This document shows positions 4,536 through 16,063 of a stretch of DNA of 64,000 bases, piece by piece. A model generated the notes under the pieces. That model did not search any database. It was not told the DNA's origin and saw nothing but the letters and a program-made list of their open reading frames with translations. Origin of the DNA: an uncultured Isosphaeraceae bacterium (lineage in GTDB: Bacteria > Planctomycetota > Planctomycetia > Isosphaerales > Isosphaeraceae); contig CAMFLR010000004.1 of the NCBI GenBank assembly GCA_945957605.1, positions 372,001-436,000 of the forward strand, in the 5' to 3' direction. Both the position numbers and the translations under genes were made by a program. Numbering within the stretch: the stretch's first letter is position 1; each line of letters begins with the position of its first letter.

Positions 4536-5450
4536 CTACTTATTCCCATTCACGAACAGCGCCTGCACCTCGAATGCCGCGGGGGCGAGCAAGATGATGA
4601 ACACCGCCGGAAAGATGAAAAGCAGCGTCGGCACTAGCATCTTCGTTGCTGCCTTCTGAGCCCGTTCTTCCGCCTTCTGCTTGCGCTTCGATCGCAGATT
4701 TTCGGAGTGATTTCGCAGGCTCTTCGTCATACTGGCACCAAATCGTTCCGACTGAGCCACTACCGATGCGAGGCTCAGCGCCTCTTCGAGATCGGTACGC
4801 TGCGCCATGTGCCGGAGCGCCTCGCCGATGTTGACGCCAAGCTGAATTTCGCGGTCGACAATGCGAAGTTCATCGCCAAGTTGCTTGTGCACGCCGCGAA
4901 GTTCGTCGGTCACGCGCTGAAGCGATGACTGAAGGCTCAAGCCGCCTTCGAGGCAAATCACAAGCACGTCGAGCGCGTCGGGCAACCCGCGACGAAGTTG
5001 CGTTTGGCGTGCGGCCTTTCGCTTATCCAGCCAGAAGCTGGGGCCGATCATACCGGCCATGTAGAGGCCCATCGCAATCATCAGCGCCTGTCCGGTCGGC
5101 AACGCCTTGGTTAGCGTTAGTCCAATACCGACAATCGTGGCAATGATCAACATAATGAGCTTGATGCCCAAGAATATATACATCGCCTGCGGTTGATATA
5201 GTCCTGCGTGAATGAGTCTTGCACGCAGCTTCGTTCGCTCGGCCTCGTCTTCCGGGACGATCGCCTTACCCATCTTCGGCAATGTCGCCCTGGCGATTTG
5301 CGTCACTTTTTCCGGGCGTGCCTTGCCCGCAAGCGAGTCGAGCCGCGCGTCAACCTTACCGCGACCGCTGGTGAGGAGCAAACCCACCACGAGCGCGGCC
5401 GCTACTACGAAGAGAAACACCACACCTGCAAGAATGATTTCATTACTCAT
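4536..5450 (-). CDS. tadC: Tad pilus platform protein TadC
   Basis: 304 aa inner-membrane protein of the GspF/TadC fold. With TadB it forms the platform on which the ATPase CpaF acts to assemble Flp pili. It has an N-terminal membrane helix (about residues 5-27), two further helices around 100-140, then a cytoplasmic GspF-type domain with GLPDALDVLVICLEGGLSLQSSLQRV and LASVVAQSERFGASMTKSLR, and a final helix pair near 275-300. LPDALDxLVxxLEAGLSL-type motifs are the family hallmark. It is the last gene of the operon, 61 bases after tadB, with an AGGAT ribosome site and a terminator just downstream. Confidence 0.92.
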   Translation of the reverse strand: MSNEIILAGVVFLFVVAAALVVGLLLTSGRGKVDARLDSLAGKARPEKVTQIARATLPKMGKAIVPEDEAERTKLRARLIHAGLYQPQAMYIFLGIKLIMLIIATIVGIGLTLTKALPTGQALMIAMGLYMAGMIGPSFWLDKRKAARQTQLRRGLPDALDVLVICLEGGLSLQSSLQRVTDELRGVHKQLGDELRIVDREIQLGVNIGEALRHMAQRTDLEEALSLASVVAQSERFGASMTKSLRNHSENLRSKRKQKAEERAQKAATKMLVPTLLFIFPAVFIILLAPAAFEVQALFVNGNK

Positions 5451-5511: not shown

Positions 5512-6471
5512 TCAGAAGTCGAAGTTGACGATCTTGCGAATCCAGAGCGCACCAATCAATTCGATTCCGAACGTGCCGAATAGAATGCTCATATGCTTGA
5601 AGTGAACCCCCGCATACGCAGGGTTGATCATCATCAGGAAGAACAACATCAAGGGGGGCAGCCCGGCGAGAATCCAGCCTTGCATACGTCCTTCCGCCGT
5701 CAGCGAACGAATCATCCCGCGAATCTGGTAACGCTCGCGGATAATGGTGGCGAGCTTCGTGAGCAGTTCGGCCAGGTTGCCACCGGTTTGCTGTTGCACG
5801 AGCACAGCCAGCACGAAAATCTTCAGCTCGATGACGTCCGATCTCCGATTCAGATCGCGAAACGCCTGCTCGGCCGAGAGACCCATGTTTTGCTGTTCAT
5901 AGCAGTAAGCGAACTCTGCAGCGAGCGGCTGCGGGAATTCATCCGCAACCGCCATCAGGGACTGGTTGAGCGTTTGACCGGAACGGACGACGCGTGCCAT
6001 CAACTCAAACGCGTCGGGCAGTTGCGACCGCAGCTTCTCGATGCGTTTTTCCTTGCGACGCTTCACGACCCAGAACGGGAGCACGCCGCAAAAGGCGCCG
6101 CCAAGCAGAAAATCGACGATGCTCAGCCGAAGCACGAACGCAAGCACTCCGCCGCCGACCGCAGCACCTGCTGCAATGGCAATGAGTCGGTCGGTGGTGA
6201 TGTCCATGCCCGACTGCTCGACCATCGCGTCGAGCCGCTGACGAAACGATGGCTTACCTTCGAGCGAGGTCGCCGCGGCCACTTGCCCAAGATTTTTGAA
6301 CAGCGGCGATTTCTTGACTTGTTCTTTGCGCTTCTTGAGAAACTCATAGTCGACGCGATCGTTCACGCGCGACCTGTCCTTCAAGAACAGGTCGCTAAGA
6401 ATCTGGTAGACGGCGAAAACGCCGGTGATCGCCGTAAGACCCGCAAGGGCTGAGACAATCGCTGGGCTCAT
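5512..6471 (-). CDS. tadB: Tad pilus platform protein TadB
   Basis: 319 aa inner-membrane GspF-domain protein, partner of TadC. Membrane helices lie near residues 5-25, 95-130 and 265-310. The cytoplasmic domain carries LRSQLPDAFELMARVVRSGQ, then EFAYCYEQQNMGLS and VLAVLVQQQTGGNLAELL, all typical of TadB. Its ATG overlaps the last bases of cpaF (ATGA overlap), so the two are translationally coupled. Length is normal for the family. Confidence 0.93.
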   Translation of the reverse strand: MSPAIVSALAGLTAITGVFAVYQILSDLFLKDRSRVNDRVDYEFLKKRKEQVKKSPLFKNLGQVAAATSLEGKPSFRQRLDAMVEQSGMDITTDRLIAIAAGAAVGGGVLAFVLRLSIVDFLLGGAFCGVLPFWVVKRRKEKRIEKLRSQLPDAFELMARVVRSGQTLNQSLMAVADEFPQPLAAEFAYCYEQQNMGLSAEQAFRDLNRRSDVIELKIFVLAVLVQQQTGGNLAELLTKLATIIRERYQIRGMIRSLTAEGRMQGWILAGLPPLMLFFLMMINPAYAGVHFKHMSILFGTFGIELIGALWIRKIVNFDF

Positions 6472-7841
6472 CGCATAGTCTCCTGAGCGCGCTGGCCAGT
6501 CAGCATGCGCCGCTCGAACATCTCGAGCGGCAGTTTTTCGCCAGCTTCTTCAAGCTGTTCGAGGCACTTGGGACGAATGCCTGTGCAGACGAAATAACCC
6601 TGAGCAACGCGGTTCTCGTCAACGCCCGTTTGCTTGAAGACGAAGATGTCCTGCATACTCACGACATCTTCTTCCATACCGGTGATTTCAGAGATCTTGA
6701 TGATCTTACGCACGCCACCGGAGAGTCGTGCAGCCTGGACAATGAGCCGCACGGCCGAAGCGATCTGACGGCGAATGATCCAGATCGGCAGGTCGAAGCC
6801 AGCCATACCGACCATCATCTCGATACGGCCGATCGCGTCACGCGTATCGTTCGCGTGAATCGTCGTCATCGAACCGTCGTGGCCTGTGTTCATCGCCTGA
6901 AGCATGTCCAGCGTTTCACCGCCACGACACTCACCGACGATGATCCGGTCGGGACGCATACGAAGGGCGTTTTTTACGAGGTCGCGGGTGAGAATTTCAC
7001 CATTGCCTTCAAGGTTCGCCGGACGCGTTTCCATCCGGACCACGTGCGGCTGTTGCAAGCGAAGTTCAGCGGCGTCTTCGATCGTCGCCACGCGCTCGTC
7101 AGACGGGATGAAAGCGGAAAGCGCGTTCATGAGCGTCGTTTTGCCGGAACCGGTACCGCCAGAAACAACCATGTTCACCCGAGCACGCGTACATGCCGAG
7201 AGGAAGTCGACCATCTCCTGCGTGATCGCCCTTTTCTCAACCAAGTCTGCGAACTGAAGCGGAGTTTTGCCCGAGCGACGAATCGAGAGCAGCGTGCCGT
7301 CGAGCGCCAGTGGCGGAATGACCGCGTTCACGCGAGAGCCGTCCGGAAGACGGGCGTCGCAAAGCGGCGACGTTTCATCGATACGTCGGCCGACGCGGCT
7401 AACGATGCGCCTGACGATATCCTGTAGGTGCTTTTCGTCGTTGAAGACGACTTCGGACCGACTTAGTCGACCGCGTTTTTCAACATAAACGCACTTCGGA
7501 CCGTTCACAAGAATATCGGAAACCGCCGGGTCGCGCATCAAGGGTTCGAGCGGGCCGATGCCGAATACTTCGTCGAGCACTTCACCAACGAGGCGGTCAC
7601 GTTCGGCGAGGCTGAGCAGGTCGTTGCTTTGGCGGCAGAGTTGCTCTGCGCCTCGGCGTACCTCCTCGCGCAGCTCCTCATTGCCCAGGCTGCTCATCGC
7701 GGAAATATCCATTTCCGTGATCAGCTTGTGATGCAAGTCTTTCTTGATTTTGAGCAGGCGGTCCTCGCCTGCAATCGCGTCAGTCGCAAGGGCGCCATTC
7801 ATTCCGGTCATTGATTGAATCACGGTCAGATCCCTCATCAT
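6468..7841 (-). CDS. cpaF: Tad pilus assembly ATPase CpaF (TadA)
   Basis: 457 aa cytoplasmic secretion ATPase of the GspE/VirB11 superfamily that powers extension, and in some species retraction, of Flp pili. The N-terminal domain spans about residues 30-200. The ATPase core has Walker A GGTGSGKTT (228-236), an acidic Asp/Glu-box region IEDAAELRLQQ, Walker B RIIVGECRG (299-307) and the His-box region TTIHANDTRD. It lacks the tetracysteine zinc motif of GspE, as expected for CpaF. Two tandem ATGs open the frame (7841 and 7838); no clear ribosome site precedes them, but the stop of the DUF362 gene lies only 10 bases upstream, so coupled translation is likely. Confidence 0.95.
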   Translation of the reverse strand: MMRDLTVIQSMTGMNGALATDAIAGEDRLLKIKKDLHHKLITEMDISAMSSLGNEELREEVRRGAEQLCRQSNDLLSLAERDRLVGEVLDEVFGIGPLEPLMRDPAVSDILVNGPKCVYVEKRGRLSRSEVVFNDEKHLQDIVRRIVSRVGRRIDETSPLCDARLPDGSRVNAVIPPLALDGTLLSIRRSGKTPLQFADLVEKRAITQEMVDFLSACTRARVNMVVSGGTGSGKTTLMNALSAFIPSDERVATIEDAAELRLQQPHVVRMETRPANLEGNGEILTRDLVKNALRMRPDRIIVGECRGGETLDMLQAMNTGHDGSMTTIHANDTRDAIGRIEMMVGMAGFDLPIWIIRRQIASAVRLIVQAARLSGGVRKIIKISEITGMEEDVVSMQDIFVFKQTGVDENRVAQGYFVCTGIRPKCLEQLEEAGEKLPLEMFERRMLTGQRAQETMR

Positions 7842-7850
7842 TGAGGCTAG

Positions 7851-8891
7851 TTACAGCTTCGTAGGAACGTTGGACGCAAGGTGAGACGGTTTGCGCGGGT
7901 CGAGCCGAGCGAACTTCTGGACAAGAGACGCGACAACTTCGCCGCGCTGGGTGATCAGCGTTTCCGAAATCGGTCCCATCGACCGCGCTGCAAGCGCGAG
8001 ATGTTCGATCTCATAGGGATCAATTCCCATCAAACGAGTCGCAGTTGCATCAACAGCCGGCAGGTTTGTGCCCATGATCACAACACCACCATTGCGTGGT
8101 GTGCCCATGATCGGACCGTCGCCTTCCATGCCGACAATGCCGTCGATGATCGCCAGATGCGGCTTCACCGCCGCGTTGATGTCGAGAATCGAGCCGGTGA
8201 TTCCCGCGTGATGCAGCACATTCTTCGGCCAGCCGTAGGCGACGCCCGGCATCATGCCGAAAAGGTTTTTCATCGAAAGCGTGACACCGGCCCAGTGATG
8301 CGTCTTCAACTTCGCCATCGAGACGACGATATCCGCACGCTTCAGCGACTCGGGCAGATAGAGATTCTTCATCCGCGTCGAGCCAAACGTGTTGCGGACC
8401 GACATGACGTCGTCATGATTGAGGTCGACGAACGAGAGACGAGACTCATCGAGCACTGGACCAAGTCCCGACTGCTCGAGCACGTAATCGGTATCGCGGC
8501 AATGTCCCTGGCCTTCCGCCACAAAGACTTCGCTCGCCCCCCAACTCCGAAACACATCGGCCGTCGCGCGGATGATTTCCGGATGAGTGTTGATGTGCGG
8601 GCTCTGGCGATCGGGCTCGACAAGATTCGGTTTGAGCAGCACGCTCCGCCCGCGGACCCAATCCGGCCCCAGCTTCAGCTCTTTCAATCCGTCCGAAACA
8701 ACGCGTTTGAGATCCGCCTTGTAAGATTCAGCCTTACCGACGAATACGTCAGCGAGAGGTGTCTTTGCCGCAAATTGGCGACACGCCACAACGGCAAGCC
8801 CCTGCGCAGCGAGCACTCCTGCACCAATCATTACATGGCGACGATTCAATCCCTGCCGCTGCTCATTTTGTGTCACTGACGTGTCACTCAT
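7851..8891 (-). CDS. DUF362 protein with twin-arginine-like leader
   Basis: 346 aa from the ATG at 8891, chosen because it follows a GGAGG site and gives a leader NRRHVMIGAGVLAAQGLAVVA that looks like a twin-arginine or signal-anchor sequence; a frame from 9032 would hide it. The body is a DUF362 domain: SVLLKPNLVEP, NTHPEIIRATADVFR, VSMAKLKTHHWAGVTLSMKNLFG, IDGIVGMEGDGP and a C-terminal DATATRLMGIDP. DUF362 members are often tied to iron-sulfur chemistry, but no CxxCxxC ferredoxin cluster is present here. The start overlaps the upstream repeat-protein gene by 8 bases and the stop lies 10 bases before cpaF, so it sits inside the Tad operon. Its job there is unknown. Confidence 0.85.
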   Translation of the reverse strand: MSDTSVTQNEQRQGLNRRHVMIGAGVLAAQGLAVVACRQFAAKTPLADVFVGKAESYKADLKRVVSDGLKELKLGPDWVRGRSVLLKPNLVEPDRQSPHINTHPEIIRATADVFRSWGASEVFVAEGQGHCRDTDYVLEQSGLGPVLDESRLSFVDLNHDDVMSVRNTFGSTRMKNLYLPESLKRADIVVSMAKLKTHHWAGVTLSMKNLFGMMPGVAYGWPKNVLHHAGITGSILDINAAVKPHLAIIDGIVGMEGDGPIMGTPRNGGVVIMGTNLPAVDATATRLMGIDPYEIEHLALAARSMGPISETLITQRGEVVASLVQKFARLDPRKPSHLASNVPTKL

Positions 8892-9783
8892 GGGAATTCT
8901 GCGCCTCCAATCTCGCGGCCCCAAAACCCCTGAGCGAATCGCGATCGGCAGCGAGGATGAGCATCGCGAGCGAGATCGCTGAGCCGGGACGATCGACGAG
9001 TCGGTCGAACGCATTTTCGAGCCATTCGTCACTCAGCTTCGGCTCACACTCCCACGCCCGAAGCCCGAGCAAACCCCACCCCAGTGATACCGGCGCACTC
9101 GTTTGCGTCAGAATGCGTTGAAGGTATTCGATTCCCGCCTCCACGGCCGGCTCGTTCCTTCCGGTCGTGCTCAGCGCTAAGAGTGCGAGTCCAGTTGGTG
9201 CGGGAACAGGACGAAGTGGCGTCCCGAAGACGACTGGATTCCCCATGTTCCAACCACCTGTGGGAATCGCTCGGTCACGCAGTACCGAAACCCCTTGTTT
9301 CGTCCGACCGTGAGATTGCATTCCGGCCCCTGACAGCGCGAGGATCGCCAGGCTCGTCGGCTCAACCCAGGAATGGGTACCTGCTAGCCACGGCCAGCCG
9401 ACAAGCTGCATATCGTGACCAAGTGGCCAACGCTCGGGATTCGCCGCGGTTTCCCCTTTTTGACCGAGCAGCCAGTTCAACGCCGAGGTTCGTTGTGTGG
9501 TATGCGATTCCAGTGCGGTCCAAAGCAGGCAAGCGTAAGACGTGGGCCAGCCAGCATCCTGGAATGAATGAGTCACTCCGATCGATCCGTTCGATCTTTG
9601 CTTCGAGGCCAGCCAGGCGGCAGCCTCCGCCGCAATGGCGCGATGACTGCTCAAAAGGCTCAAGCCGGCAAGCGCGGTAGGCTCGGCGGCGGAAGTCGCG
9701 GATTGTGCATACGCCCAGCCGCCGTCGCGTCGACGCTCAACGAGGAGGCGACGGCGAGCGGCTTCGATCCAGTCGGCTCTCAT
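8884..9783 (-). CDS. Squalene-cyclase/prenyltransferase repeat protein
   Basis: 299 aa made of alpha/alpha-toroid repeats related to squalene-hopene cyclase and prenyltransferase beta subunits: RRDGGWAYAQ, EPTALAGLSLL, SNGSIGVTHSFQDAGWPTSYA, GGWNMGNP and PAPTGLALLAL are spaced like QW-type repeats. It is less than half the length of a true cyclase and I find no DxDD catalytic motif, so terpene cyclisation is unlikely; ligand or lipid binding is possible. No signal peptide is seen. I begin it at ATG 9783 (GGAG eight bases upstream) rather than GTG 9792. It lies 45 bases after cpaE and overlaps the DUF362 gene, so it is co-transcribed with Tad genes. Confidence 0.75.
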   Translation of the reverse strand: MRADWIEAARRRLLVERRRDGGWAYAQSATSAAEPTALAGLSLLSSHRAIAAEAAAWLASKQRSNGSIGVTHSFQDAGWPTSYACLLWTALESHTTQRTSALNWLLGQKGETAANPERWPLGHDMQLVGWPWLAGTHSWVEPTSLAILALSGAGMQSHGRTKQGVSVLRDRAIPTGGWNMGNPVVFGTPLRPVPAPTGLALLALSTTGRNEPAVEAGIEYLQRILTQTSAPVSLGWGLLGLRAWECEPKLSDEWLENAFDRLVDRPGSAISLAMLILAADRDSLRGFGAARLEAQNSHE

Positions 9784-9827: not shown

Positions 9828-10937
9828 CTACTTGGCTGTCCCGTTCACACCCGCGGCAATTTGAACGATTACTTTTGAGACTTTGGCGGAGGGAGCGTCG
9901 ACCACGACCGGTACACCGCGATTGTTCGCTCGGTTCACCACCTTGGCGTCTTCTGGAATATAGTGCGAGATTTTGAGTCCGAGCGCTTCTTCTGCCTTAG
10001 ATGCGGGAACTTCTTGCGGTTGGCCATAGCGATTCACAACTGGACGCAAACGTTCCTTCGGAATTCCCAGCTTTGTCAGGTATTCAATCGTCCTGCGCAT
10101 GCTACGCAGCGAGGTAAAGTCGAGCCGGAAGACGAGCAAAATCAAATCCGCCTGCTGCAGCACGATGCGCTGCTCCTGACGGAATGAATGATCGACATCG
10201 ACCACGACAAACGGAAAGCTTGCCCGCGCCAGCGTAATGGCCTGATTCACGCCTTCAGGACGCACGTGCGCAACGTCGGCAATTTCCTGTGGGGGCGCAA
10301 GGAGGAAGATGTTGGGCTCGTATTTCAGGAGCGATCGCTCGAGCATGCTGCGATCGAGATGTGCTGAGTTATGGCAAAGATCGGCGAGAGTATAAGTCGC
10401 GGTGAGGTCGAAGAGTGCGGTCAGGTCGCCCGATTCGAGCTTCATGTCGACTACGCCGACACCCTTCGCACCTTTGCCAAGCGCGACAGCAAGATTCGCC
10501 GTCAACGTGCTCGCACCAACGCCGCCGCTTGTGCCCAGCACAGCGACAAGTTTTCCAGGCTCAACTGGTGGCGCAGCCGCTTTTTGCATCCGTTCGATCG
10601 CGGACTTCAGATCGACTTCGAGATCCGCGGTGTCGACATAATCAACTGCGCCACAGCGCAGCGCGCGGAGAATCGTACCGCCGCCGGAAGTTGGTCCGAC
10701 GACAATAACCTTGCCGGGGGCAAGCTTCGCCAGGACCGGCAGCACCGCCAGTCCACGATCCATGTCGGATCCAAGCGAGAGAACAACGACATCGACCTGT
10801 TCTTCGCGGGCGATGTGTTGCGAGGCGGACTCGATCGACACGACTCGTAGGGCGTCCGGCCGTTTTGAGTCGAAACTGAGGACTTCGCGGATCCGATTCG
10901 CCGTCGAGTCGTGATCACAAGCGATAAAAGCAGGCAT
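9828..10937 (-). CDS. cpaE: Tad pilus localisation ATPase CpaE (TadZ)
   Basis: 369 aa, begun at ATG 10937 behind CAGGGAG. The first 120 residues form an atypical receiver-like domain (VDVVVLSLGSD, KVIVVGP, GAVDYVD). The rest is a MinD/ParA-type ATPase: LGTSGGVGASTLTANLAVALG near residues 135-155, GVVDMKLESGDL, and FVVVDVDHSF. The P-loop has Ala where ParA/MinD proteins have the second lysine, and also lacks the signature lysine before GGVG. Loss of one or both is known in the CpaE/TadZ family, which positions the pilus machine at the pole or membrane. It lies between cpaB and the repeat-protein gene. Confidence 0.9.
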   Translation of the reverse strand: MPAFIACDHDSTANRIREVLSFDSKRPDALRVVSIESASQHIAREEQVDVVVLSLGSDMDRGLAVLPVLAKLAPGKVIVVGPTSGGGTILRALRCGAVDYVDTADLEVDLKSAIERMQKAAAPPVEPGKLVAVLGTSGGVGASTLTANLAVALGKGAKGVGVVDMKLESGDLTALFDLTATYTLADLCHNSAHLDRSMLERSLLKYEPNIFLLAPPQEIADVAHVRPEGVNQAITLARASFPFVVVDVDHSFRQEQRIVLQQADLILLVFRLDFTSLRSMRRTIEYLTKLGIPKERLRPVVNRYGQPQEVPASKAEEALGLKISHYIPEDAKVVNRANNRGVPVVVDAPSAKVSKVIVQIAAGVNGTAK

Positions 10938-10996
10938 TGTCACTCCCTGAACCGGCGCGGCCACTTTTCCAATTGCTAACTATCAATGATCTCACA

Positions 10997-11983
10997 TTAC
11001 GGAGAAGTTGGGGACGGGGGACCGACGCGATCGGCAAGTTGATCGCCCGCGACGATCGCCGCCAGGCCACCGCGAGAACCCGCATTCGCTGCCGGCATGC
11101 GAATCGTCAACTGATCGGCACCGACCGATGTCCCACGAAGTGTGCGAATCGAATACGAAATCTCAACCGGAGCAGGGGGAGCCAGCGGGGGCGGAGGAGC
11201 AACTGGCGGAGGCGGCGGAGGAGCAACCGCCACTTCCTTCTTGGCCGCCTTCTTGTCGCCCAGGGACGTGAGAATGTCCAGCATCGTCGCCGGCTTCGCG
11301 TCTGGCGCTTCCTTGTCCGTCGGGTTGCGGAGCGAAAGGTGAAGCGTTCCCTTATTTTGGCCAAGGTCGAGAAGCGCCGCTTCAGCAGGCTTCACAAGTA
11401 GCGTCACCGACAGGGCATCTTTGGGATCGATCTTGTTTGTCGCGGGTGTATCGACGGTCGTATGCACCGCGAGAATCTCGACGTTTGTCAGCAGGGTGCT
11501 GGTCGTCGCACCGCCGGCAGGGTCGTCGAGACCACCTGCACTTGTCACCGTGAACAGCACGTCGACCCGGTTTCCAGGGAGAAGGAAACCCGCGAGCGAC
11601 GACGAAAGGCTGGGAGTTTGAATCGTGAAGGCCCGGAAGCCGGGACGAATGAGCGATGCCATCCCGCTGCCCGAACCTTTAGGCGCAAGCTTCGCGTCGA
11701 GAATGATATCGCCTTTGAGCATCGGCATGTGTGCCGACCGTTCGAGGACATCGGCGGAGTTACCGAGAACAGGCGAGGTAACCTGATCGACCGGTACCTG
11801 GCGCACCTCGATCATTTGCTCTTTGATCGTCTCACCGCGCTGGATGTCGACGGCCGCATAAATGACCGGCGTCGTTTCGATGGCTGGGCCACCGGGTTGC
11901 TTGCGGAGCAAGAAAATGCCGCCGGCCGCGCCAACACCGCAGATGAGCGCCAGAGCCAGAACAATGATCGTGCGTATACTCAT
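10997..11983 (-). CDS. cpaB: Flp pilus assembly protein CpaB (RcpC)
   Basis: 328 aa periplasmic protein with an N-terminal anchor (IIVLALALICGVGAAGGIFLL). It carries a SAF-like beta-clip domain (IYAAVDIQRGETIKEQMIEV) and the RcpC/CpaB domain (GFRAFTIQTPSLSSSLAGFLLPGNRVDVLFT). The stretch after it is Pro/Lys/Ala rich, PPPPPPVAPPPPLAPP, and probably crosses or lines the peptidoglycan. CpaB helps seat and stabilise the secretin CpaC. GGAGG lies five bases before the ATG. Gene order cpaA-cpaB-cpaE is conserved in Tad loci. Confidence 0.9.
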   Translation of the reverse strand: MSIRTIIVLALALICGVGAAGGIFLLRKQPGGPAIETTPVIYAAVDIQRGETIKEQMIEVRQVPVDQVTSPVLGNSADVLERSAHMPMLKGDIILDAKLAPKGSGSGMASLIRPGFRAFTIQTPSLSSSLAGFLLPGNRVDVLFTVTSAGGLDDPAGGATTSTLLTNVEILAVHTTVDTPATNKIDPKDALSVTLLVKPAEAALLDLGQNKGTLHLSLRNPTDKEAPDAKPATMLDILTSLGDKKAAKKEVAVAPPPPPPVAPPPPLAPPAPVEISYSIRTLRGTSVGADQLTIRMPAANAGSRGGLAAIVAGDQLADRVGPPSPTSP

Positions 11984-12050: not shown

Positions 12051-12605
12051 CTAGATCACACTTCGCAGATTGAGCAAAACTAGGGTCAGAAACCCGACGC
12101 AGGTCATCGCACCAAACGGCACGAGCCTGGAGCGGCGGTCGGCCCGGCCGACCTCCTCATCAATTTTCACGCGAGGCCGACGCCATTGAGACGGCGTGGC
12201 CATTTGATAGCTAAGCATGCTGAGGTCTGTGAGCACGATCGTCAGGCCACCGCGCATCAGCGTAAGCACCACGGCATAAATCCCAGCGGCAATCGCAGCG
12301 GCGGCGAAAACTTCAAGCGTGAGCATTGGGCCGAGCCAGGCGCCAATTGCCGTGAAGAGTTTGACGTCGCCAGGTCCAACGCCGCCGAGAGCGCAGAAGA
12401 AAACGAGGACGGCGAATCCGACCATCGCCCCGGACAGGCTATATGCGAAGCCCCCAAAACCATGAAACGCTGCTCCAGCGACGAGGCCGGCGAGCAGCGT
12501 TGGAAATGTCAGCACATTGTAAATCTTGAATGCAACCAGGTCGGTGACCGCGGCGATCATGGTTACGGCCGCCACGACAACAAGCGCGATGCTTGCGAAT
12601 TCCAT
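12051..12605 (-). CDS. cpaA: Prepilin peptidase CpaA (TadV, family A24)
   Basis: 184 aa polytopic membrane aspartyl protease that cleaves the Flp and TadE/F leaders after Gly. The two family aspartates are visible: TDLVAFKIYNVLTFP (first Asp, the D-x2-x-I-x-N pattern) and GGVGPGDVKLFTAIGAWLG (GxGD, the active-site signature). It has about five to six membrane helices and no N-methyltransferase domain, as normal for the short Tad-type enzyme. The only other pilin system in the window (26-35 kb) has no prepilin peptidase of its own, so this enzyme or one elsewhere must serve it. It starts five bases after the small membrane protein gene. Confidence 0.93.
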   Translation of the reverse strand: MEFASIALVVVAAVTMIAAVTDLVAFKIYNVLTFPTLLAGLVAGAAFHGFGGFAYSLSGAMVGFAVLVFFCALGGVGPGDVKLFTAIGAWLGPMLTLEVFAAAAIAAGIYAVVLTLMRGGLTIVLTDLSMLSYQMATPSQWRRPRVKIDEEVGRADRRSRLVPFGAMTCVGFLTLVLLNLRSVI

Positions 12606-13018: not shown

Positions 13019-13195
13019 TCAGCTACCGGCGCCGGAGACGGCGGTCGCGGTCGAGGTGAACTGGCCGCCAATGGCGGTCGAGAGCGTGCTGATGACGGTG
13101 ATGAGCGCCGCACCAATCAGGGCGATCATCAGGGCGTATTCGACCATCGTCGCGCCCTCTTCTTCACGAACGAGTTTCTTCAGGAAATTGGCCAT
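13019..13195 (-). CDS. flp: Flp/Fap-type type IVb pilin
   Basis: 58 aa prepilin. A short basic leader (MANFLKKLVREEEG) precedes the cleavage site, then ATMVEYALMIALIGAAL, with Glu at +5 and Tyr at +6 of the mature protein as in all Flp pilins. The remainder is one hydrophobic helix and a short Ser/Thr/Gly tail. AGGAG lies eight bases before the ATG at 13195, which decides the start over the GTG at 13204. It is one of two near-identical pilins; this is the copy closer to cpaA. Confidence 0.95.
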   Translation of the reverse strand: MANFLKKLVREEEGATMVEYALMIALIGAALITVISTLSTAIGGQFTSTATAVSGAGS

Positions 13196-13275
13196 CGAAC
13201 TCACTCCTGTTTCTGAAAGTTGTGCGACTTGCCTTGCCGCCGTCTCTCAAGTTGAGACGTGTCGTACATCTTGAA

Positions 13276-13401: not shown

Positions 13402-13578
13402 TTAGCTACCAGCGCCGCTGACGGCGGTGGCAACTGAGGTGAACTGACCGCTGATCGCGGTCTTGAGTGTGCCGACGACCGTGATGAGTGCCGCACCGAT
13501 CAGCGCGACCATCAGGGCGTACTCAACCATCGTCGCGCCTTCTTCACCGTTCAGCAGATTCTTGAGGAAAGCCTTCAT
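13402..13578 (-). CDS. flp: Flp/Fap-type type IVb pilin, second copy
   Basis: 58 aa prepilin begun at ATG 13578 behind GGAGAG. Leader MKAFLKNLLNGEEG, then ATMVEYALMVALIGAAL, identical at nearly every position to the downstream pilin, with a matching tail TSVATAVSGAGS. It differs mainly in the leader and in residues around 40-50 (KTAISGQF against STAIGGQF), so the two look like a tandem duplication. It is first in the operon and probably the major shaft subunit; whether both are incorporated is unknown. Confidence 0.95.
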   Translation of the reverse strand: MKAFLKNLLNGEEGATMVEYALMVALIGAALITVVGTLKTAISGQFTSVATAVSGAGS

Positions 13579-14029: not shown

Positions 14030-14161
14030 TAAATTACTAAAACGAATAAGGTTCATTTTAAGTTAAAGACGCGACTTTAGCCTTCAGTCGCACCACTTCT
14101 GCGCCGATAACCAATTTGACGATTAGGTAAAAACTGCCGATTCTAGGCGGGGGAATTGCTC

Positions 14162-16063
14162 GTGGGCCAAGACCGGAAATCGCGACGCCGACGTTGCCTG
14201 ACCGGGCGATTCCACATGCCGTGTGCGCTGGCGATGGTCGCATTGCTCGTCTCAACGCACGCAAGCCGCGGCCAGGATCGGCTCGAGGCATTGCCGACGC
14301 TGCCAATTCGGCAACCAAACACACTTGCCACTCCGCCACCGCTTCCCGACGCCATTCCACTGGCCCCCTCGCAGCCATCTTTCATCGAAAGCCTGACAAC
14401 GCCGACGTCGTCGATCGAGGTGAAAGTCGGCCAGGGGCGATTCCTGACGCTCAAGGAAAACTTGGTCGTTCCAGGCCAGCAGGCTGCGTTGATCGCGGTT
14501 GGTGATCCCACGGTGCTCGACTTCTTCCAGGCCGGCCCGCGCCAGCTTCGATTGCTCGGCAAGCGACTCGGTACGACAGACCTTTCCATAACCACAGGCG
14601 CAGGCAAAACCTACGACTATGAGGTGACCGTAACGGCCGACCTCGACATCCTGCGTGCCCAGCTCAGGCAAATGTACCCGGACGCGTCGCTGCAGGTCGC
14701 ACAGCTTCGTGAGCGATTGGTCGTTGAAGGCCAGGCACGCGACTCGGTCCAAGTAAGCCGAATCATTTCGACCATCGACACTTACATTCGCTCAATCCAG
14801 CGCGTGCAGATCAGCGGCCAGATCGACAATGTGCAGGTCAAGGCCGACGGCGCGCCAGCGGGTCCTGCAAACGCACCGCGGACGACCGAAGACCAGCCAC
14901 CACCACCGCCCAGTCCGGGCTCGTCGGTGTCGTCATTGATGAACGACGCCTCGGCGAACTTCAGTAGCGGCGGACCGCAAAGCGGCAATCAACAGGTTTC
15001 GCCGGGCGCCACGACCACGAATCAGATCGTCACGAACCAGCTTCAAATCATCAATCTCATCCGCGTGCCAACCTCGCAGCAGGTTCTGCTCAAGGTGCGT
15101 GTCGCCGAGTTGAACCGGACCGGCTTCCGCCAGATTGGCGCCGACTTCCTGGCCTCGATCCCGCAGTTTGGCTCGCTTTTCGGCACGCAGATCAGCGGCG
15201 GCACGTTCGTCCCCGGCCGGCTGGGAAACACGACCTTCCGTCCCCCGGCCGGCGCGACTCCCGACGTCCGCGCCATGAGTGTTGCCGCGCAAGGAACGGT
15301 CTTCGGCACGTTCTCACAAGGGCAGTTCAACACGGTGCTAAGCGCACTACGACGGAACAACCTCCTGAAAGTGCTTGCCGAGCCGAACCTGATCGCCCTC
15401 AACGGCCACCAAGCGAACTTCCTCGCTGGCGGCGAGTTCCCCGTTCCGGTCCTGCAAGGTTCGTCCGGAAGCACGGGCGGCGGTAACAGCATCAGCGTGC
15501 AGTTCAAGGAGTTCGGCGTTCGCCTCGCCTTCCTCCCGCTCATTCAAGACAACGAAACGATCCGGATGACGATCGACCCGGAAGTAAGCACGATCGACAC
15601 GACGCTCGGAACCACGCTCGTGCCGGGCGGCACGCCGATTCCCGGCCTGAACACGCGCAAGTCCCACACGACCGTCGAGCTAAAACAGGGCGACACGCTG
15701 GCAATCGCCGGCCTCATGCTCGTGAGCATCGACGGTTCAACCCAGCGCATCCCTGGGCTTGGCGATCTTCCCTACATTGGTGCGTTCTTCAGCAACACGA
15801 CCAGCCAGCGAATCGAAAAAGAGCTCGTCGTGCTGGTCACGCCATACATCATCGAGCCGATGACGCCGAGCCAGGTGCCACCGCTTCCCGGCGACGAAAT
15901 CAACGAGCCGAATGATCTCGAGTTCTACCTCATGAACCGGATCGAAGGCCGCACTGGTATCGATGCTCGTTCAACCACAAGCTTCGACGACCCGCTGCAT
16001 CTCATCCGTCATTCGATCGTTGAGCGCAAGTTCCTTGTCGGTCCCTCGGGTTATTCCAAGTAA
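14162..16063 (+). CDS. cpaC: Tad secretin CpaC (RcpA)
   Basis: About 633 aa outer-membrane secretin through which Flp pili exit. Order: signal peptide (CALAMVALLVSTHASRG), Pro-rich spacer, pilus-formation N-domain (IEVKVGQGRFLTLKENL to about residue 160), a BON-like domain (about 163-215, LRERLVVEGQARDSVQV), a Pro/Ser/Asn-rich linker (about 240-290), then the secretin core (LLKVRVAELNR; NNLLKVLAEPNLIALNG; GGEFPVPV; KQGDTLAIAGLM; ELVVLVTPYII). The start is uncertain: TTG 14156, GTG 14162 (best spaced from GGGGG) or ATG 14216, which would give a tight signal peptide. It heads the plus-strand arm. Confidence 0.93.
   Translation: MGQDRKSRRRRCLTGRFHMPCALAMVALLVSTHASRGQDRLEALPTLPIRQPNTLATPPPLPDAIPLAPSQPSFIESLTTPTSSIEVKVGQGRFLTLKENLVVPGQQAALIAVGDPTVLDFFQAGPRQLRLLGKRLGTTDLSITTGAGKTYDYEVTVTADLDILRAQLRQMYPDASLQVAQLRERLVVEGQARDSVQVSRIISTIDTYIRSIQRVQISGQIDNVQVKADGAPAGPANAPRTTEDQPPPPPSPGSSVSSLMNDASANFSSGGPQSGNQQVSPGATTTNQIVTNQLQIINLIRVPTSQQVLLKVRVAELNRTGFRQIGADFLASIPQFGSLFGTQISGGTFVPGRLGNTTFRPPAGATPDVRAMSVAAQGTVFGTFSQGQFNTVLSALRRNNLLKVLAEPNLIALNGHQANFLAGGEFPVPVLQGSSGSTGGGNSISVQFKEFGVRLAFLPLIQDNETIRMTIDPEVSTIDTTLGTTLVPGGTPIPGLNTRKSHTTVELKQGDTLAIAGLMLVSIDGSTQRIPGLGDLPYIGAFFSNTTSQRIEKELVVLVTPYIIEPMTPSQVPPLPGDEINEPNDLEFYLMNRIEGRTGIDARSTTSFDDPLHLIRHSIVERKFLVGPSGYSK

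Follow-up and report, generated by a model that had tools for sequence, protein, structure and literature searches.

A squalene-cyclase-like protein (SQC) and a DUF362 protein, encoded side by side in a Tad pilus operon of an uncultured Isosphaeraceae bacterium, form an uncharacterised, putative enzyme pair that we find at Tad loci of three phylum-level groups. LarA is the lactate racemase, and the DUF362 protein is predicted to share the fold of its N-terminal domain; residues aligned with those that LarA uses for catalysis and for binding the nickel-pincer nucleotide (NPN) cofactor are conserved. We tentatively take the pair to be an old two-subunit envelope enzyme, probably NPN-dependent and exported by the twin-arginine (Tat) pathway, which was recruited several times to Tad loci, a reading that we hold at slightly less than an even chance.

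Two genes between cpaE and cpaF

The window analyzed here is a stretch of 64,000 nucleotides containing a Tad (Flp, type IVc) operon, in which the genes follow one another on the minus strand in the order cpaA, cpaB/rcpC, cpaE, SQC, DUF362, cpaF, tadB, and tadC (Table 1). An earlier note on this window had placed a 299-aa toroid protein lacking DxDD and a DUF362 protein with a twin-arginine-like leader between cpaE and cpaF, and we confirmed the coordinates of both, their 8-nt overlap, and the presence and conservation of the leader. The note was also right that DUF362 lies very close to cpaF, but its figure of 10 bases was not exact, as there are 9 nt between the end of DUF362 at 7851 and the start of cpaF at 7841. 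At the other end, 44 nt separate the cpaE stop from the SQC start. In the stretch from cpaE to cpaF, a pattern scan revealed no promoter-like site, a result compatible with, but not proof of, a single cpaE-SQC-DUF362-cpaF transcript.

Upstream of cpaA, the window also contains two near-identical small frames on the minus strand (13019-13204 and 13402-13578) with the motif EEGATMVEYALM.ALIGAALITV. Based on this motif, we take them to be Flp-type pilins, and thus a duplicated pilin gene.

Table 1. Coordinates of the SQC-DUF362 pair, selected codons, and neighbouring Tad genes in the window
Feature	Position	Strand	Description
SQC	8884..9783	-	ATG start, 299 aa; predicted single-domain alpha/alpha toroid, class II terpene-cyclase fold, without DxDD
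DUF362 protein	7851..8891	-	ATG start, 346 aa; predicted LarA N-terminal domain fold; twin-arginine leader
Overlap of SQC and DUF362 reading frames	8884..8891	-	8 nt
Codons R17-R18 of DUF362	8838..8843	-	Twin arginines of leader; at least 90% conserved in 81 rows
Codon His130 of DUF362	8502..8504	-	Aligned with LarA catalytic His (H108, L. plantarum LarA)
Codon His198 of DUF362	8298..8300	-	Aligned with LarA H174
Codon Lys208 of DUF362	8268..8270	-	Aligned with LarA NPN-binding lysine (K184)
Codon His227 of DUF362	8211..8213	-	Aligned with LarA NPN-binding histidine (H200)
cpaF/tadA ATPase	6468..7841	-	Directly downstream of DUF362
cpaE-type ATPase (MinD/ParA)	9828..10964	-	Directly upstream of SQC
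cpaB/rcpC	10997..11983	-	Pfam
cpaA-like prepilin peptidase	12051..12605	-	Named from position and likeness to cpaA-type genes of related loci
tadB (T2SSF)	5512..6471	-	Pfam
tadC (T2SSF)	4536..5450	-	Pfam
cpaC/rcpA secretin	14156..16063	+	Divergent unit, same locus; Pfam

Recurrence of the pair and its link to Tad loci

SQC homologues were detected in 30 of the 59 genomes searched, own genome included, and the same DUF362 gene lies directly downstream in 32 of the 33 SQC copies examined, the exception (G007) being cut by a contig end. A wider set of named loci comprises the best 80 of at least 579 DUF362 relatives found with the DUF362 alignment; several of the 80 come from genomes also among the 59 searched, and the phyla represented are Planctomycetota, Nitrospirota, Nitrospinota, Desulfobacterota-type 'Deltaproteobacteria', Acidobacteriota, and Verrucomicrobiota. 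SQC is located directly upstream of DUF362 in 79 of these best 80 loci, the remaining one (L113) beginning at a contig edge, and its matches exceed 150 bits in 76 of the 79 and are weak or cut in three (L066, L075, and L135). Moreover, SQC and DUF362 are joined in one open frame, 660-755 codons long, in four planctomycete genomes of one other family. Adjacency and fusion bear out the earlier view that the two genes belong together, here as an integral part of the Tad operon, and we consider it virtually certain that they are a functional pair. The fused loci are L059-L062 (G038, G047, G056, and G051). Two Singulisphaera-type genomes, G010 and G027 (L045, L046, L057, and L058), carry three copies of the pair each, one of them beside Tad. 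Among the named loci, L071 belongs to a cultivable planctomycete, Singulisphaera acidiphila DSM 18658, which has the pair next to its Tad operon.

At least two Tad families were found in the flanks of 38 of the best 80 loci, a fraction that may be too high because the loci were chosen by likeness to a Tad-linked query. Among loci of at least 18 kb, 18 of 36 have at least two Tad families, compared with none of 40 control windows of 20 kb picked arbitrarily (Fisher 7e-8), two of which gave a single weak ParA-type match; the controls were taken from six genomes (five belonging to the same family as the window, the sixth an Acidobacteriota), with phyla unevenly matched. Fewer than two Tad families were seen at 42 of the 80 loci, many of them from short flanks, but also at 18 of the 36 long loci.

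The position of the pair in these loci varies. It sits in line between cpaE and cpaF in the window and in L063, L064, L068, and L080; immediately downstream of tadC, in the same orientation and with small gaps, in five Nitrospira-type and four Desulfobacca-type loci; and divergently beside cpaA in many planctomycetes and some Nitrospirota and Deltaproteobacteria. The Tad link is thus seen in at least three layouts and in planctomycetes, Nitrospirota, and Desulfobacterota-type genomes, so that the suggested neighbourhood search found the pair beside Tad genes outside the planctomycetes as well. When 76 pairs were placed on a tree, those with the after-tadC layout fell into two distinct clades, both supported (SH-aLRT 98 and 95), and each half of the tree contained Tad-linked pairs. 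The earlier statement that the two genes are foreign to known Tad loci holds for the textbook gene set, which to our knowledge includes neither of them, but needs qualifying, as the pair is a recurrent Tad accessory across groups.

The earlier note had associated a chance insertion with absence of the pair from the Tad loci of related genomes. We found the pair within ~3.5 kb of cpaB/rcpC in 19 of the 26 genomes that carry it unfused, the window's own genome among them (distances were read off search coordinates). In the window's own family, this applies to 19 of 24 pair genomes; of the other five, three (G022, G028, and G031) are limited by short contigs or have no rcpC in the assembly, and in two (G020 and G021) the pair is truly distant. 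A fragment of a metabolic operon might have landed by chance in one planctomycete Tad locus, and many relatives do have Tad operons without the pair. However, Tad genes accompany the same pair in three phylum-level groups, and at least two Tad families were seen at half of the long loci and in none of the control windows. Because it recurs in this way, we regard chance insertion as refuted, with hardly any probability left to it.

The sister genome G001 has neither rcpC nor the pair. RcpC is present in 55 of the 59 relatives, so the presence or absence of Tad says little about the pair. Ten of the 33 RcpC-bearing family members lack the pair, and it is therefore an accessory of Tad and not a core component: it lies outside the Tad core gene set, is not required by Tad, and is not confined to Tad loci. 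These ten genomes, together with the half of the long loci having fewer than two Tad families, would also fit the idea of a self-contained module for envelope lipids or isoprenoids, placed near Tad genes as part of a convenient, co-regulated neighbourhood of surface genes and having no action on the pilus. So would the extra copies in G010 and G027, which are not at RcpC, and the pairs of the four fused genomes, which are far from it. Against such a module stand the tight insertion into operons at two positions (between cpaE and cpaF and, in two clades, after tadC) with small gaps, and the failure of any other neighbour family to recur; we find it possible, but rather unlikely. That the pair is functionally linked to Tad where the two are adjacent is, in our opinion, likely. 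The earlier note had suggested that the two proteins may modify or sense the pilus, or couple its production to a lipid or redox state; these roles are still hypothetical.

Our tally of neighbours at loci without Tad genes covered 86 of the 105 neighbours within 2.5 kb, 19 having been omitted by eye as short or doubtful frames, and no non-Tad family recurred among the 86 often enough to name a substrate. A glycosylation module was considered, as GT87 and PMT_2 adjoin some pairs, yet GT87 was found only three times and no family dominates the tally, and this candidate was rejected. In five Nitrospira-type Tad operons (L115, L124, L130, L140, and L142), a gene encoding 108-114 aa directly follows DUF362. 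Our literature search returned no paper linking DUF362 with squalene cyclase, nor, as judged by titles and abstracts, any paper joining Tad, DUF362, squalene-hopene or terpene cyclase, twin-arginine, and nickel-pincer.

Folds, conserved residues and cofactor supply

The Pfam family SQHop_cyclase_C matches the window SQC at E 1.2e-4, which falls short of its cut-off, and the squalene-cyclase label is therefore weak from Pfam alone. In a PDB search with a family profile of 76 SQC relatives, squalene-hopene cyclase was matched at E 4e-14. The predicted model (pLDDT 94.5) resembles this enzyme most closely, with Z 26.4 and an rmsd of 2.8 over 260 residues, followed by drimenyl diphosphate synthase (Z 25.6) and single-domain cyclases (Z 22-24), with 8paj, 8pak, and MstE among the best matches. 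Glycosidase-type toroids rank behind the cyclases (Z 20-23). SQC would therefore have in common with the class II terpene cyclases an alpha/alpha toroid (Z 22-26) and profile similarity, but differs from them in being one 299-aa domain, in lacking DxDD, in having only 17-21% identity, and in its invariant residues, which among the 76 members are G66, T81, W88, G129, W130, T136, W139, R171, G177, W178, N179, and G181. The D.DD motif is absent from the window SQC, and the string occurs in one of the 76 family members. Since the motif is missing in 75 of the 76, and the invariant residues are different despite the terpene-cyclase fold, the model suggests a cyclase homologue with a rebuilt pocket, and not a demonstrable cyclase.

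One could argue that SQC is nevertheless an active terpene cyclase that employs another acid, residue 34, and whose cyclised lipid is then modified by DUF362. Residue 34 is acidic (E or D) in 73 of the 76 members, and the best structural matches, including the single-domain enzymes, are cyclases. However, the protein is half-size, its invariant residues do not resemble the cyclase motif, and toroids also include glycosidases and epimerases (Z 20-22). With DxDD missing, we disfavour a functional terpene cyclase, and consider this alternative improbable.

The DUF362 protein is clearly assigned to its Pfam family (PF04015; E 2.4e-51, 175 bits vs a cut-off of 24, domain positions 1-199 of 200), and its match to NCBIfam NF052623 (Npun_F2552 family), at 102.7 bits, is far under that family's cut-off of 500. 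What sets the window's subfamily apart from PF04015 and NF052623 at large is that it is tied to SQC, and frequently to Tad loci. A PDB sequence search with DUF362 gave no credible match. The predicted model (pLDDT 91) matches 12 LarA-type structures at Z 15.2-17.9 over 210-220 residues, the next best match being at 6.3; one of the 12, 4nar, is a Thermotoga protein without a name, which Foldseek likewise ranks with the LarA-type structures. Nothing follows the N-terminal-domain fold in the 346-aa model, whose residues 50-333 are the aligned range, such that the LarA C-terminal domain with K298 is missing.

Narrower profile alignments of DUF362 and LarA gave no match when compared. With widened profiles, HHalign gave a score of 40.6 (E 1.7e-4 for one comparison, with a probability of only 50%), in a comparison controlled with shuffled, reversed, and unrelated profiles; the highest scores were 20.7 for 60 column shuffles and 23.9 for eight unrelated profiles. 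Of the 109 rows in the widened DUF362 profile, 28 were added, and as these are mostly pair proteins of other genomes, with the window's own repeated, the profile is less diverse than its row number. DUF362 and the DUF2088 of LarA belong to one Pfam clan (CL0471), and a 2024 study used DUF362 as the outgroup of the LarA tree (PMC11770544). We are highly confident that the DUF362 protein has a LarA-type fold and is a homologue of LarA.

In L. plantarum LarA, K184, H200, and R75 contact NPN, and D72, H108, H174, and K298 are catalytic (PMC7583248). In the LarA of the host itself (L160), HHalign places H130, H198, K208, and H227 of DUF362 on H117, H183, K193, and H209, whose spacing is that of H108, H174, K184, and H200 in L. 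plantarum; the equivalence thus rests on spacing and motif via the host LarA, and not on the L. plantarum sequence. Among 81 pair proteins, H130 is kept in 80, and H198, K208, and H227 are each kept in all. The D72/R75 region aligns with gaps and has a KPN nearby, with no clear counterpart or invariant D/R pair. Overall, the alignments and model suggest that DUF362 has in common with the LarA superfamily (Lar_N, PF09861) its N-terminal fold and four of the active-site residues, and is unlike LarA in lacking the C-terminal domain, in not clearly keeping D72 and R75, in its twin-arginine leader, and in its constant SQC neighbour. The predicted fold points to a LarA/NPN-type active site, which the earlier note had not anticipated. 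Weak Lar_N matches were also seen on three Nitrospirota DUF362 frames (G115:C44, G133:C92, and G140:C90), the in-frame overlap being derived from coordinates; they cover profile positions 144-190, the stretch expected to contain the NPN lysine.

We then asked where the genes for cofactor supply are found. In 40 genomes out of those carrying the 80 loci, LarB scored over its cut-off in 39, and LarA in 15. In seven of the 40 (G065, G067, G072, G080, G082, G087, and G089), LarB was present, LarA was not found, and the pair's DUF362 was the sole DUF362 found (DUF362 was searched in 25). Among 148 Nitrospirota genomes, 80 have LarB and DUF362, 22 LarB only, 10 DUF362 only, and 36 neither (Fisher 8e-11, on raw counts that ignore kinship and MAG completeness). 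When the 13 genomes with strong LarA are removed, DUF362 is found in 69 of 89 LarB genomes vs 10 of 46 without LarB. LarB is present in all six Nitrospirota genomes with the pair and in 96 of 142 without it, which is not a significant difference (Fisher 0.18); because LarB is so common without the pair, the counts support NPN use by DUF362 generally more than by the pair. In 14 control genomes scored at a looser threshold, LarB was found in six and DUF362 in five, with four shared (Fisher 0.09). LarE and LarA are found in nearly all planctomycetes examined, and are therefore uninformative for the pair. Twenty of the 148 Nitrospirota genomes have LarB, with neither LarA nor DUF362 found, and another NPN user may be present in such LarB-only genomes.

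As reported in PMC11796402, larB, larE, and larC occur without larA in ~15% of the genomes analysed there, and the NPN user of such genomes, for example those of many cyanobacteria, is left unidentified, a fold distinct from LarA being expected. With its predicted LarA-type fold and aligned cofactor residues in place, DUF362 is a concrete candidate NPN user, and if it proved to be a second NPN family, the lack of LarA in many NPN-producing genomes would be accounted for. Alternatively, DUF362 may be a LarA fold without NPN, in which the His/Lys cluster binds a metal ion, a nucleotide, or phosphate, and the pair serves as a sensor or scaffold. This would account for the unclear retention of R75 and D72, the loss of K298 and its domain, and the DUF362 genes still present in 10 of the 46 LarB-negative Nitrospirota genomes. 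It is at odds with the invariance of the residues aligned with K184, H174, and H200, and with the near-universal LarB of the pair genomes, where LarA is found in only 15; we regard it as a realistic, if tentative, alternative. Use of NPN by DUF362 is, in our estimate, an evenly balanced proposition.

Export and proposed reaction

The arginines R17 and R18 of DUF362 are at least 90% conserved (81 rows), and a Tat-like motif, scored by our own rule, together with a mildly hydrophobic stretch, is present at the N-terminus of 76 of 78 scored pair proteins, two of the 80 not being scorable. No leader was seen by eye in SQC. If DUF362 does use NPN, it would be an exported NPN protein; we know of no exported location for this cofactor.

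For the cofactor, the export, the complex, the substrate, and the pilus effect, we infer the following scheme. DUF362 would be the catalytic subunit, a LarA N-terminal half providing a lysine and a histidine for NPN and two histidines for catalysis. It would probably be loaded with NPN in the cytoplasm and then exported folded by Tat, with its N-terminus as an anchor, and SQC would probably bind to it and be exported as a hitch-hiker. SQC would stand in for the missing LarA C-terminal domain, closing the active site and offering an aromatic pocket for the substrate. A role for SQC as substrate-binding partner could, in our judgement, equally be right or wrong. The substrate would most likely be a prenyl-type or other lipid-linked molecule, although for a lipid or prenyl substrate our confidence is limited. 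The reaction envisaged is a LarA-like hydride transfer, namely an epimerisation or the oxidation or reduction of a hydroxy group, and not terpene cyclisation; in Tad operons, its product would be used for pilus assembly, anchoring, or surface modification. Taken as a whole, the most complete version of this scheme, in which DUF362 is a second NPN protein family and its Tad-linked subfamily is a Tat-exported heteromeric NPN enzyme, with a terpene-cyclase-fold subunit replacing the LarA C-terminal domain, that alters a molecule, lipid-linked or on the surface, on behalf of Tad pili, is speculative and rather doubtful.

The fused SQC-DUF362 proteins have no Tat leader, and obligatory export therefore fits them poorly. 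A linker, possibly amphipathic, takes the place of the leader, and the fused protein may be cytoplasmic or membrane-bound.
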